Source: a virus
Length of the DNA: 20,315 nucleotides
Direction: 5' to 3' (one strand)
Virus record (IMG/VR): IMGVR_UViG_3300020810_000025
Span: 1-20,315 of that record
The stretch's first letter is position 1. The number at the start of each line of letters is the position of its first letter. The notes under the pieces were generated by a model. The model was given only the letters and a program-made list of their open reading frames with translations, made no database searches and was not told the DNA's origin. Shown here one piece after another: positions 1,481 through 11,213 of this stretch. The translations under genes and the position numbers were made by a program.

Positions 1481-3925
1481 ATGAAGATACTTGAAATAAT
1501 GCCAACGTATCAAGACCAGACACAAACTGAAAAGATGTCTGCTGAACTTGGAAAGAACCGCACAAATAAGAGAAGGCTGTCACACATAGAACGTGAAGAG
1601 GAAAGCGTTACGTCTTACGGTAAAGTTATTGTAGCAAATACAATACGTCCATTAGCAATAGCCATTGCAGAATGGGTAGAACATGCAATATCAAATGTTC
1701 ATTCCAAACCACCCATTGCTCTCAAATATATTTCCCAAGTAGACCCTAAAATTGTAGCATTGATAACGGCAAAACATGTAATCAATACTATTACTAATAC
1801 TAAAAATCTAACAGCTACCGCTATTACTTTAGGTGGTAGAATTGAAACTGAGATTAGTCTTAAAAATTTTAAAGGATTAAACCCAGAGTTATACGAGACA
1901 GTTAAAAAAGACTTAGACAAAAGGTCTTGGAACTATAATTATAAAAGAAGAAAATTAAGAGAAAGTGCAAAACGTGATGAAGTTATGCAGTGGGAAGAGT
2001 GGACTACTACTGAAAAACTACACGTTGGAATGGAGCTTGTTTCTTTGCTTATTTCTAGTACAGGACTTGTAGAAATAGCTACAGAACAACACAAACACAA
2101 GACTGTTAAAGTTATTAAACAGACTGCAAAAACAAAAGAATGGATTAATAACCGTAATAAGTTTAATGAGCTATTAAACCCAGAATACCTGCCTATGGTT
2201 ATGCCTCCAAAATCTGTAGAGGACGGTAAAGTAGTCGGACACGGTTATTGGACATCAGAAATGCCAGAATTAGACCTTGTTAAACAAAAAGGTAAGAAAT
2301 TCACTAAAGAATTAGAAGCCTTTGCTATGCCTGAAGTAACAACAGCAGTCAATTTAATGCAAGGAACAGCTTATAAAATTAATAAGTTTATTCTTGGTGT
2401 TATGCAAAACGCATGGGACAAAGGTTTATCTATAGGAGGTATGCCACCTATTAAAAACCTAGATTTACCAAATAAACCACATGACATTGAGACCAACCCA
2501 GAGGCACTCAAAAAGTTTAAGAAGGAAAGTGTCATAGTACATACAGAAAACAACCGTATGGTCTCTAAAAGGCTTCTATACGCTAAGATTATATGGTTAG
2601 CAGAGAAGTTTAAAGAATATGCTACTTTGTTCTTTCCTCTACAATTAGATTTTAGAGGTAGAGCTTATTGTGTACCTGCATTTCTTAACTATCAGTCTAT
2701 CAATGGGGCTAAAGCATTGCTTAATTTCTCATTAGGTAAACCTATTACTACAGAAAATAGAGGTGTGTTTTGGTTAGCTGTTCACGGTTCTAATATGTGG
2801 GGTAATGATAAGGTATCATTTGAAGATAGAGAAAAATGGTCTTATGATAATTTAGCATGGATTAAAGAATGTGCTGAAGACCCTATTGCTAATCGTAAAT
2901 GGGAGGACGCAGATAATCCTTTTCAATTTCTTGCATTTTGTGATGAGTGGAAAAGATACCATGAAACAGGTGATGGGTTTATTTCTCATATACCTGTTAA
3001 CGTAGATGGTTCTTGCAATGGATTACAAATTTATTCTTTGTTATTAAAAGATAAAGTTGCAGGTAAATTAGTTAACTGCTTACCAAGTGAAATACCACAA
3101 GACATCTACCAGTTAGTAGCTAACGAAGTTATTAAAACTTTAAAAGTTAAAGCTAGTGAAGGCGACCCATTAGCACAAAAATGGTTAGAGTATGGTGTCA
3201 AACGGTCTACATGTAAAAGACCTATTATGACAATTTGTTATGGGTCTACTAGATACTCTTGCACTGACTTTGTAGTGGAAGATTTAACCAAAAGAAAAGA
3301 CAAAGGAGAAATGCACCCTTTTGATGACATGTTTAAACCTGCAACATATTTGTCTAAAATTATTTGGGCAAGTATAGGTGAGAATTTAAAATCAGCTAGG
3401 GTAGGTATGGATTATCTACAAAACAATGCAAAGATAATTGCAAAAGAAGGAATACCTATACATTGGGTTACACCTGTAGGCTTTCCTGTGTTTCAATACT
3501 ACCCAGAAATGAAAAGTAAAAGAGTAAGGTCTCATTTAATGGGTGAGGTGTTTGCACCGCAGATAAAACAAGAAACAAAAGAAACTGATAAGTTAAGAAG
3601 TAGAAATGCTGTAGCGGCTAACTATGTTCATAGCTTAGATAGTGCTTGTATGGTTAAGACTGTTAATATTGCTAAAGCAAAAGGTATTGATAGTTTTTGC
3701 AATGTGCATGATAGTTTTGCTACACACGCTTGTGATATAGATAAACTTAATCAAAGCATAAGAGAAGCCTTTGTAGATACTTTTAGTCAAGACTTATTTA
3801 CAAAGTTTAAATTAGATGTTGGGCAATTATTGCCTGATGAAACTAGAAATAAATTACCTGCAATACCTGAAAGTGGTGATTTAAATTTAGCTTTACTACA
3901 TCAATCCAAGTTTTTCTTTGCCTAA
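1481..3925 (+). CDS. T7-type single-subunit DNA-directed RNA polymerase (gp1)
   Basis: An 814-aa homologue of T7 RNAP (883 aa); the shortfall is probably mostly N-terminal. The polymerase motifs are intact. Motif A is VDGSCNGLQ with metal ligand D509. Motif B is CKRPIMTICYGS with K579 and Y587. The VHSLDSACM segment precedes motif C, NVHDSFATH, with D744 as second metal ligand. The protein ends FFFA, close to the FAFA foot of T7 RNAP that helps form the active site. It should transcribe phage middle and late genes from phage-specific promoters. A strong ribosome site (AGGAG, 5 nt before ATG) precedes it. Its probable regulator, the lysozyme homologue, lies about 1 kb downstream. Host RNAP presumably transcribes this gene first, but no clear sigma-70 promoter was found in the gap before it. 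Confidence 0.97.
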   Translation: MKILEIMPTYQDQTQTEKMSAELGKNRTNKRRLSHIEREEESVTSYGKVIVANTIRPLAIAIAEWVEHAISNVHSKPPIALKYISQVDPKIVALITAKHVINTITNTKNLTATAITLGGRIETEISLKNFKGLNPELYETVKKDLDKRSWNYNYKRRKLRESAKRDEVMQWEEWTTTEKLHVGMELVSLLISSTGLVEIATEQHKHKTVKVIKQTAKTKEWINNRNKFNELLNPEYLPMVMPPKSVEDGKVVGHGYWTSEMPELDLVKQKGKKFTKELEAFAMPEVTTAVNLMQGTAYKINKFILGVMQNAWDKGLSIGGMPPIKNLDLPNKPHDIETNPEALKKFKKESVIVHTENNRMVSKRLLYAKIIWLAEKFKEYATLFFPLQLDFRGRAYCVPAFLNYQSINGAKALLNFSLGKPITTENRGVFWLAVHGSNMWGNDKVSFEDREKWSYDNLAWIKECAEDPIANRKWEDADNPFQFLAFCDEWKRYHETGDGFISHIPVNVDGSCNGLQIYSLLLKDKVAGKLVNCLPSEIPQDIYQLVANEVIKTLKVKASEGDPLAQKWLEYGVKRSTCKRPIMTICYGSTRYSCTDFVVEDLTKRKDKGEMHPFDDMFKPATYLSKIIWASIGENLKSARVGMDYLQNNAKIIAKEGIPIHWVTPVGFPVFQYYPEMKSKRVRSHLMGEVFAPQIKQETKETDKLRSRNAVAANYVHSLDSACMVKTVNIAKAKGIDSFCNVHDSFATHACDIDKLNQSIREAFVDTFSQDLFTKFKLDVGQLLPDETRNKLPAIPESGDLNLALLHQSKFFFA

Positions 3926-4010: not shown

Positions 4011-4631
4011 ATGACTAAACAAACATACAATAAGATAGTAACACCTGTGGGTGTTTCTCAATACTGTTGGCTAAACACACCTGACACTAAATTTGATAAA
4101 GAGAATGGAGGACACTTTAAAACTAACCTCATTCTAAAAGGGTCAGAAGCTCAAACAGTAATTAAATCCATTAAAGAAGAAATGAAAAAGTCTTTAGAAA
4201 TGGCTAAAGAAAAAACTAAAGGTAAAGAACCTAAAACAGCAAACATGCCTTTTGAAGAAGAATATATTGAGGGTAAACCAACTGGCAATATCATCTTCAA
4301 ATTCAAAGCTAAAGCAAAAATTATGATGAAATCTGGTGACGTAATAGACATCAAGATACCAATTTTTGATAGCAAAGGCACACCAATGAAAGAGCAAGTA
4401 TGGTCTGGTTCTGAAATGAAAATTTCAGCAGACATGATACCTTACTACACCGCAATGGCGGGAGCAGGTGTGTCTTTGAGATTAAAGGCAGTACAAATAA
4501 CCAAGTTAGTTGAAGGCGGAGCAGGTGCAGGAGCAAAAGGGCATGGCTTTGACGAAATTAAAGATGGTTATGTTGCACCCGAAGAACAACCTACTGAAGC
4601 AGATGAGATACAAGAAGCATCTGACTTCTAA
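4011..4631 (+). CDS. Single-stranded DNA-binding protein (T7 gp2.5-like)
   Basis: A 206-aa protein in the gp2.5 position (T7 gp2.5 is 232 aa). It begins TKQTYNKIVTPVGVSQYCWL and has a lysine-rich middle suited to an OB-fold ssDNA binder. The C-terminus is acidic and ends in phenylalanine (EADEIQEASDF), as in gp2.5, where the acidic tail contacts DNA polymerase and primase-helicase. It should coat ssDNA at the fork. AAGGA lies just before the ATG. Its last 29 nt overlap the start of the endonuclease I gene in another frame. Assignment rests on context, the tail and overall pattern rather than a catalytic motif. Confidence 0.85.
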   Translation: MTKQTYNKIVTPVGVSQYCWLNTPDTKFDKENGGHFKTNLILKGSEAQTVIKSIKEEMKKSLEMAKEKTKGKEPKTANMPFEEEYIEGKPTGNIIFKFKAKAKIMMKSGDVIDIKIPIFDSKGTPMKEQVWSGSEMKISADMIPYYTAMAGAGVSLRLKAVQITKLVEGGAGAGAKGHGFDEIKDGYVAPEEQPTEADEIQEASDF

Positions 4632-5016
4632 TCAAGTAGGACTTAAATATGGGTTTAGGTCAGGTCTTGAAATAGCAATCTCACAAGAGCTAGATGCTAA
4701 TAAGGTAAAGTATAAATATGAGAAGGTTAAATTGACGTATGTCAAACCACAGAAAGCTCATGCTTATACGCCTGACTTTTACCTAGATGAACAAGATATT
4801 TATATCGAAACAAAAGGTTTGTTTACTTCTGCTGACAGACAGAAGATGAGACTTGTAAAAGAGCAACACCCAGAAAAAGATATTAGATTTATATTTAGTA
4901 ATTCAAGAAGCCGAATATCTAAAAAGTCTGCAACAACTTATGCCATGTGGTGTGAAAAATATGGTTTTAAATATGCAGACAAACATATTCCATTGGAGTG
5001 GTTAAATGAACAATAA
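4603..5016 (+). CDS. Endonuclease I, Holliday-junction resolvase (T7 gp3-like)
   Basis: A 137-aa protein matching T7 endonuclease I (149 aa) along most of its length: FRSGLE, AYTPDFYL, IYIETKGL, REQHPE-like KEQHPE, FSNSR, CEKYGFKYADKHIPLEWL. The PD-(D/E)XK catalytic set is present: E23, D58, E69 and K71, equivalent to T7 E20, D55, E65 and K67. It resolves branched replication intermediates and degrades host DNA to supply nucleotides. I chose the ATG at 4603 because the family's N-terminus begins shortly before FRSGLE. A longer in-frame reading to 4510 would run through the SSB gene and adds no family sequence. The chosen start overlaps ssb by 29 nt and has only a weak ribosome site, suggesting coupled translation. 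Confidence 0.95.
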   Translation: MRYKKHLTSNQVGLKYGFRSGLEIAISQELDANKVKYKYEKVKLTYVKPQKAHAYTPDFYLDEQDIYIETKGLFTSADRQKMRLVKEQHPEKDIRFIFSNSRSRISKKSATTYAMWCEKYGFKYADKHIPLEWLNEQ

Positions 5017-5440
5017 TCTTAGAAGTAGAACTGATTTTATAGTTGTTCATTCAACTAAAACAAAAGCTAATCAAAATTTAAGTGCAAAGGATATAACTTT
5101 ACTTCATAGAAAAGAAGGTTTCTTTCACAACGCTTTTCATTTTGTAATTAAAAGAGATGGTACAGTAGAAAATGGTAGACCAGAAGATATGTCTGGTGCA
5201 ATTTTACCAATAAACCAACCTTTAATTACTAATCAAAATTCTATTGCAGTAGGTCTTGTAGGAGGCTTATCTGAAGATGGAAAAACTCTCGACACTAACT
5301 TTACATTTCAACAATACTCTTCGCTAAGAGAACTTGTCAAAAAGTTGAAAACAAAGTACAAGGTTGAGGTAGTGGGTTGCAGAAATGCAATTAACTCCAA
5401 ATCGTGCATGTGTTTTGACACAAGTGCGATTGTTGATTGA
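5006..5440 (+). CDS. T7 lysozyme (gp3.5)-like amidase homologue, probably inactive
   Basis: A 144-aa homologue of T7 lysozyme (151 aa), an N-acetylmuramoyl-L-alanine amidase that also binds and inhibits T7 RNAP. Shared segments are FIVVHSTKTKANQN, HFVIKRDGTVENGR, NSIAVGLVGG and SKSCMCFD. Of the T7 catalytic residues, zinc ligand H17 is kept as H15, K128 as K132 and zinc ligand C130 as C134. The third zinc ligand H122 aligns with N127, H121 with R126, and Y46 with F44. Loss of a zinc ligand and the catalytic tyrosine argues against amidase activity, leaving RNAP control as the likely role. The gene overlaps endonuclease I by 11 nt, and a strong terminator starts just after its stop. Family membership is firm; inactivity is inferred by hand alignment. 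Confidence 0.9.
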   Translation: MNNNLRSRTDFIVVHSTKTKANQNLSAKDITLLHRKEGFFHNAFHFVIKRDGTVENGRPEDMSGAILPINQPLITNQNSIAVGLVGGLSEDGKTLDTNFTFQQYSSLRELVKKLKTKYKVEVVGCRNAINSKSCMCFDTSAIVD

Positions 5441-5441
5441 G

Positions 5442-5477
5442 ACGCTCCTAGTTAGAAATAGCTAGGGGCGTTTTTTA
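5442..5477 (+). terminator. Strong intrinsic terminator after the lysozyme gene
   Basis: A 10-bp stem, ACGCTCCTAG (5442-5451) with CTAGGGGCGT (5462-5471), contains one G-U wobble and a 10-nt loop. A run of six T (5471-5476) follows. It begins 2 nt after the lysozyme stop and separates the gp1-gp3.5 block from the replication block. It has no matching A-run on its left side, so it should act only on plus-strand transcripts. Confidence 0.88.
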
Positions 5478-10637: not shown

Positions 10638-10852
10638 TACAAAACCCTCCACACTATGCAAACAATGAGATTGAACCTATTGATTATATCATAGCAAACA
10701 AACTCACATACTGCGAAGGTAATGTTGTTAAGTACATTACAAGGTGGAGAGGTAAAGGCGGTATAGAAGATTTAAAAAAAGCAAAACAATACATTGACTT
10801 TATTATAGAAAAAGAAGGCGTACCTAAAGTCACAGAAAGTAAAGATGCTTGA
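10625..10852 (+). CDS. DUF3310 family protein
   Basis: A 75-aa protein with the DUF3310 pattern: NPPHY near the N-terminus, IEPIDYI, then GNVVKYITRWRGKGGIEDLKKAKQYIDFII. This short domain is common in phages, is sometimes annotated as a nucleotide-kinase-like protein, and has no established function. It sits directly before metabolic genes and overlaps both neighbours (13 nt with the exonuclease, 8 nt with the next gene), so it is part of the same transcript. Recognition of the domain is confident; its biochemical role is unknown. Confidence 0.85.
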   Translation: MADMIQNPPHYANNEIEPIDYIIANKLTYCEGNVVKYITRWRGKGGIEDLKKAKQYIDFIIEKEGVPKVTESKDA

Positions 10853-11213
10853 ACATAAGCATATTATTATTCGTGCCACAGTAAACAAACCTCCTAAAGA
10901 TGTCGAGTTTATTAAAAGATGGGTAAGAGAGTTAGTTGCAAAACTAAAAATGAAACCATTAGGAGATACTGTTGCAGTGTATGTAGACAAAGAAGGTAAT
11001 AAAGGTCTTACTTGTTTACAAGCCATTGAAACATCACACATAGCATTTCATTCATGGGACGAAGACGAACCTGCTATGGTTCAATTAGATGTCTACACAT
11101 GTAGTCACTTAGATAAACACATGGTGTTTAAAACTTTAGACATATTTGAACCAGTAGAAATTAATTATTTAACATTAGATAGAGAAAGATACTTAGAGAT
11201 AAAACATTTATGA
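10845..11213 (+). CDS. speD: S-adenosylmethionine decarboxylase-like proenzyme
   Basis: A 122-aa homologue of the small bacterial AdoMet decarboxylases (SpeD/SpeH), which make the aminopropyl donor for spermidine. The signature region ETSHIAFHSWDEDEP is followed by LDVYTCS. S64 aligns with the serine that becomes the pyruvoyl group after self-cleavage, H69 with the processing histidine and C86 with the catalytic cysteine. The cysteine stands 17 residues after the histidine, versus 15 in the T. maritima enzyme. The residue before the serine is T63 rather than the usual glutamate. The gene overlaps DUF3310 by 8 nt and nrdA by 4 nt (ATGA). It looks like an auxiliary metabolic gene; whether self-processing still occurs is uncertain. 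Confidence 0.8.
   Translation: MLEHKHIIIRATVNKPPKDVEFIKRWVRELVAKLKMKPLGDTVAVYVDKEGNKGLTCLQAIETSHIAFHSWDEDEPAMVQLDVYTCSHLDKHMVFKTLDIFEPVEINYLTLDRERYLEIKHL

Follow-up and report, generated by a model that had tools for sequence, protein, structure and literature searches.

An altered amidase active site in a T7 lysozyme homologue of HTVC019P-type pelagiphages

A gp3.5 gene between endonuclease I and primase

The DNA analyzed here (hereafter, the window), a virus fragment of 20,315 bases, has its genes arranged as in an HTVC019P-type Pelagivirus: a MarR-like regulator, an integrase, a T7-type single-subunit RNA polymerase (RNAP; 1481–3925, + strand; PF00940, E = 1e-104; C-terminus ...FFFA), SSB, endonuclease I (T7 gp3; 4603–5016, +; PF05367, E = 1e-50), the gene studied here (5006–5440, +), primase, polymerase, exonuclease, ribonucleotide reductase, and head genes. 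It does not include the late region. The endonuclease I gene overlaps the start of the gene at 5006–5440, which lies between endonuclease I and primase and 3' of the RNAP gene, as is found for the T7 gp3.5 family; the order RNAP, SSB, endonuclease I, gp3.5, primase is shared with T7. At its stop codon is a strong intrinsic terminator (5439–5474, +; −23.6 kcal/mol, z −5.95), whose hairpin and T tail occurred in 27 of the clade's 31 distinct downstream sequences and which would close a transcription unit just 5' of the primase gene. Elsewhere, the window encodes an S-adenosylmethionine decarboxylase-like protein (10845–11213, +; phrog_3125, E = 1e-14), a phage-encoded gene present in some Pelagiviruses and absent from the annotations of HTVC019P and HTVC031P.

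The 144-residue product of 5006–5440 is a homologue of T7 gp3.5 by both sequence and fold. It matched Amidase_2 (PF01510, E = 5e-10), phrog_822 (E = 1e-44), and the T7 lysozyme structures 1aro_L/1lba (E = 2e-23), with 41% identity to T7 gp3.5, and its AlphaFold model (pLDDT 84.7, pTM 0.81) retrieved T7 lysozyme alone (1lba) as the top Foldseek match, followed by T7 lysozyme in complex with RNAP (1aro_L). Compared with T7 gp3.5, the N-terminus is three residues shorter and the C-terminus is short; family scans revealed no added wall-binding domain. The proteins annotated as "lysozyme" or "amidase" in HTVC304P, HTVC201P, and HTVC019P are the same protein (84–97% identical; 96.5% for the "lysozyme" of HTVC304P and HTVC201P), carry the same altered residues described below, and show no important difference from that of the window; their annotation claims more than has been established.

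Selection maintains the gene, which evolves somewhat faster than most of its neighbors: the median pairwise dN/dS across the clade was 0.185, compared with 0.11–0.18 for five neighboring genes, and a ratio near 0.18 indicates that the gene is functional. Within the window's clade, 81 of 144 sites were invariant and the C-terminal metal segment was well conserved. The longest invariant run in the 61 clade sequences, residues 62–81 (5189–5248; MSGAILPINQPLITNQNSIA), is a loop five residues longer than the T7 stretch that it replaces (VGSHAKGYNHNSIG), and it has no equivalent of T7 His68. The strong conservation of this loop and of the C-terminal segment suggests that more than the N-terminal face of the protein matters in this clade.

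Active-site residues and their decay among relatives

Three of the five T7 active-site residues (numbered without the initial Met) are kept in the window protein: zinc ligand H17 as His15 (codon 5048–5050; invariant in all 61 clade sequences), catalytic K128 as Lys132 (5399–5401; K in 52, N in 8, I in 1), and zinc ligand C130 as Cys134 (5405–5407; C in 60, S in 1), all on the + strand. The catalytic Tyr, Y46, is replaced by Phe44 (5135–5137, +), which is F in 57 and Y in 4 of the 61. These assignments, seen in alignments both to T7 and to the family, agree with an earlier note made from the window sequence alone. That note had also placed the second zinc ligand, H122 (the first His of RAHHEVAPKAC), at Asn127 and its neighbor H121 at Arg126 (5381–5386, +), which proved to be one to two residues off. 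When the window protein is aligned to T7 alone without gaps, Arg126 falls at H122; in the family alignment, the H122 position is Cys125 (5378–5380, +), with sister phages reading VEVVGHRD and the window clade VEVVGCRN, so that Arg126-Asn127 align with the RD of the GHRD motif. The one-residue shift at this site is offset by a longer loop before Lys132 in the window clade. Structure models, predicted without metal and compared for strand positions rather than site geometry, gave the same correspondence: in an intact relative (L151), ligand His119 is the first residue past strand 115–118, and in the window protein Cys125 is the first residue past strand 121–124.

The family alignment and the two models together rule out both Asn127 and Arg126 as the H122 position and identify Cys125 as its modeled equivalent. 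The ligand has thus not simply been lost: the His is replaced by a residue that can itself bind zinc, and relatives share Cys125 (61/61) and Phe44 (57/61). Because Cys125 is invariant and Cys can bind zinc, a His/Cys/Cys metal site is possible in place of the His-His-Cys site of the T7 gp3.5 family. The site may thus be changed rather than broken, and metal binding by this putative Cys ligand may persist, with activity being less likely.

We scored 154 distinct gp3.5 proteins, derived from 256 loci, at the five T7 active-site positions. All five residues (H-Y-H-K-C) were intact in 58 of 58 distinct Stopavirus-type proteins and, partial proteins excluded, occurred together in none of approximately 93 from Pelagivirus and Votkovvirus. 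In another sample, made up of T7 and 98 distinct T7- and roseophage-like proteins, 98 of the 99 were intact, the exception having Thr for Lys. The decay is clade-wide and exceeds what chance would give, and different residues were lost in different Pelagivirus and Votkovvirus lineages. The window type reads H-F-C-K-C, with variants at 44 (Y), 132 (N or I), and, once, 134 (S). The HTVC031P and Eistla types read H-F-H, lack the Lys, and end in Cys, Ser, or Ala, while in HTVC109P types Ser replaces the Cys and, in some cases, Tyr replaces the second His. HTVC168P keeps H, Y, H, and C and lacks the Lys; judging from these residues, some relatives such as this one may still be active. In Votkovvirus (HTVC200P, HTVC119P), T7 IFVHCSATKP is represented by IFIDSTKTP, with H17 changed to D, and the segment bearing H122, K128, and C130 is gone, leaving the N-terminal part. 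In a tree of 51 proteins, the changed forms grouped into a single 33-row clade (support 96/94), separate from Stopavirus and the outgroups. Tyr in scattered clade members indicates that the change to Phe occurred more than once or reverted, and L058, the deepest branch of the window's clade, reads H-Y-C-K-C; with Tyr and Lys alongside Cys125, it suggests that the ligand change probably came first. An incomplete literature search returned no published account of this decay.

The annotated Votkovvirus proteins look N-terminally truncated. This was ruled out because the frame is conserved for about 20 codons upstream of the annotated ATG, itself not conserved (7604 in HTVC200P; L069 7529–7604, L070, L231–L242). 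Only TTG-like starts occur in that upstream stretch, and the annotated start looks wrong.

A second muramidase in relatives

The earlier note had reasoned that lysis would need another enzyme, and relatives of the window do encode one outside the region that it covers, which appears to take care of lysis. Near-complete genomes of the Pelagivirus/Votkovvirus clade carry a second muramidase, of GH24 (PF00959) or pesticin type (PF16754), usually just past the large terminase; such a dedicated muramidase elsewhere in the genome is a difference from T7. The pesticin type was found in HTVC031P and three IMG/VR genomes. The GH24 lysozyme gene of HTVC304P sits after the large terminase, and the 13 records that match this lysozyme best are the same 13 whose gp3.5 is closest. 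The window does not reach into the late region, so a second muramidase in its own genome is inferred from these relatives.

HTVC011P-type phages (Stopavirus/Fussvirus), which infect the same host and have a homologous gp3.5 in the same gene position, differ from the window in having all five residues intact and no GH24 or pesticin-type enzyme in the genomes tested. Neither family scans nor an HMM derived from the GH24s of pelagiphages detected these enzymes in HTVC011P, HTVC025P, HTVC041P, Gjalp, and two intact-type contigs, one of them partial, and GH24 was not found in 16 T7/roseophage-type genomes scanned with PF00959 alone. These absences cover GH24 and pesticin-type enzymes (for the T7 type, PF00959 only). 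A genome-wide PF00959 scan was rejected as proof of absence on its own, as it missed the GH24 genes of Eistla and two contigs (G009, G011) that were revealed by protein scans, ORF lists, or the HMM; the post-terminase ORF of G009, for example, escapes Pfam yet can be aligned to the GH24 set. One contig without a second lysozyme (G005) was set aside as a counter-example: its last 3.5 kb contain no terminase ORF, and it seems to end before that gene. The link between decay and a second muramidase is strong in pattern. Since it stems mostly from a single clade, it does not represent many independent events, and a Fisher test was dropped because it would have treated related genomes as independent.

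By eye, the GH24 lysozymes of HTVC304P and HTVC019P have Cys at what we take to be the position of the T4 lysozyme catalytic Asp20 (EEGFRMETYYCTEGHLTGGYGH; L002 39656–40075, L003 41483–41905). Two Pelagivirus GH24 lysozymes (L269 7582–8196, +; L270 7240–7872, −) have an N-terminal hydrophobic, signal-anchor-like segment, which suggests a different export route in those lineages.

Candidate functions of the altered protein

T7 lysozyme is the textbook bifunctional phage protein, an N-acetylmuramoyl-L-alanine amidase that also inhibits T7 RNAP.

The two activities can be separated by mutation. The Y46F change abolishes amidase activity in T7 (PMC8124813), while both Y46F and K128T retain RNAP inhibition according to a passage of PMC4573324 that cites Cheng 1994. 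Zinc is required for the amidase and not for RNAP inhibition, and residues 2–52 contact RNAP (PMC5445346). In PGRP-LB, only the Tyr to Phe change eliminates activity on all substrates (PMC8124813), and in Ts2631, Y58F and H131N leave 10% and 3% of activity, respectively (PMC4573324). The window protein carries the Y46F-equivalent change. From these mutants and the piecemeal decay across the clade, its amidase activity is probably low or lost, and we consider it fairly probable that this descendant of the bifunctional T7 lysozyme is mainly non-lytic and probably acts as an RNAP regulator. The gene order, purifying selection, and kept N-terminal region fit a regulatory role, and Votkovvirus proteins retain the part matching the RNAP-contacting region without the metal segment.

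Binding to the presumed partner, the RNAP encoded at 1481–3925, is inferred from homology and gene order. Where the T7 polymerase touches lysozyme, the match to T7 is only 4 of 15 aligned residues, compared with 272 of 806 overall, and the insertion that carries two of these contacts is missing. Conservation of the lysozyme-binding face, sought as positive evidence, was thus not found, the match being no better than for the polymerase overall. The RNAP of HTVC011P, whose gp3.5 site is intact, matches no better at these positions; the two partners may have co-evolved. The earlier note's proposal that probably only the regulatory function is kept is supported as to an amidase that is probably lost or weak, while its "only" goes beyond RNAP contacts that are not conserved above background in these phages. 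Other observations also sit poorly with a pure regulator: the conserved C-terminal metal segment is not demanded by an N-terminal RNAP-binding role, and Lys132 and a possible Cys ligand remain.

Those same residues are the starting point for the main alternative, which we regard as unlikely but deserving of weight: the protein would still function as a zinc amidase despite the ligand swap (His15/Cys125/Cys134, assisted by Lys132), its activity lowered but not eliminated by Phe44, and GH24 would have been added without replacing it. His15 and Cys125 (61/61) and Cys134 (60/61) are kept while positions 132 and 44 vary, the H-Y-C-K-C form of L058 implies that Cys125 arose with Tyr and Lys present, and PGRP-LB ligand mutants retain part of their activity (PMC8124813). 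Yet with 81 of 144 sites invariant, conservation at three ligand positions says little, Lys132 is lost in 9 of 61 sequences, and the loss of other residues in sister lineages suggests no common need for catalysis; the Tyr to Phe change, moreover, abolishes T7 and PGRP-LB activity and reduces that of Ts2631 to 10% (PMC8124813, PMC4573324). The fold also serves without catalysis in PGRPs of animals, which retain peptidoglycan binding (PMC8124813), and such PGRPs were among the fold matches of the window model. Together with the invariant block at residues 62–81, this would suit a PGRP-like peptidoglycan-binding protein that helps to time lysis or to sense the wall and does not act on RNAP. We think this improbable: the gene lies in the early/middle block by endonuclease I and primase, far from the late genes, family scans give no wall-binding addition, and a phage precedent was not found in the literature searched. 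The several changed active-site residues and the shortened Votkovvirus versions might even be read as signs of a functionless, decaying relic, a reading made very improbable by the dN/dS of 0.185, by a frame that is intact across the clade at up to 26% protein divergence, and by the intact start, stop, and terminator.

Under the favored reading of a mainly non-lytic protein, the ancestor would have been a T7-type protein with both functions, amidase and RNAP inhibition. A dedicated GH24 or pesticin-type muramidase would have taken over lysis in the Pelagivirus/Votkovvirus ancestor, after which the amidase chemistry would have decayed by different paths in different lineages, with selection still maintaining the fold. 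In the window lineage, the H122 ligand would have changed to Cys125 first and the catalytic Tyr to Phe44 later, with metal possibly still held by His15/Cys125/Cys134 as a structural site; the retained function would most likely be to bind the phage's own RNAP and restrain transcription. More tentatively, we propose as a possibility, though not the expected case, that this whole clade of abundant marine phages, once a separate muramidase handled lysis, turned a bifunctional endolysin into a dedicated RNAP regulator by several routes, the window lineage doing so with a structural zinc held by His/Cys/Cys.

The non-catalytic PGRPs (e.g., PGRP-SA) resemble this case in having an Amidase_2 fold with a broken metal site kept for another function, but they are animal peptidoglycan receptors that have lost the zinc ligands and retain the Tyr (PMC8124813). 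The natural gp3.5 variants seem to repeat the laboratory split of T7 lysozyme activities by single mutations such as Y46F, and do so in phages of Pelagibacter, among the most abundant marine bacteria. Relatives range in steps from an intact site through ligand swap, loss of the Tyr, and loss of a ligand to deletion of the segment, so that natural proteins can be compared directly as to which function keeps gp3.5 in a genome. The "lysozyme" and "amidase" labels in these pelagiphage genomes should not be taken to mean endolysin.

A separate observation concerns the RNAP of HTVC025P, HTVC041P, and Gjalp, which is annotated as two ORFs (L276 3767–6930, L277 4185–6804, L278 7222–9841), with two small genes between them in HTVC025P; it is possibly a naturally split single-subunit RNAP.
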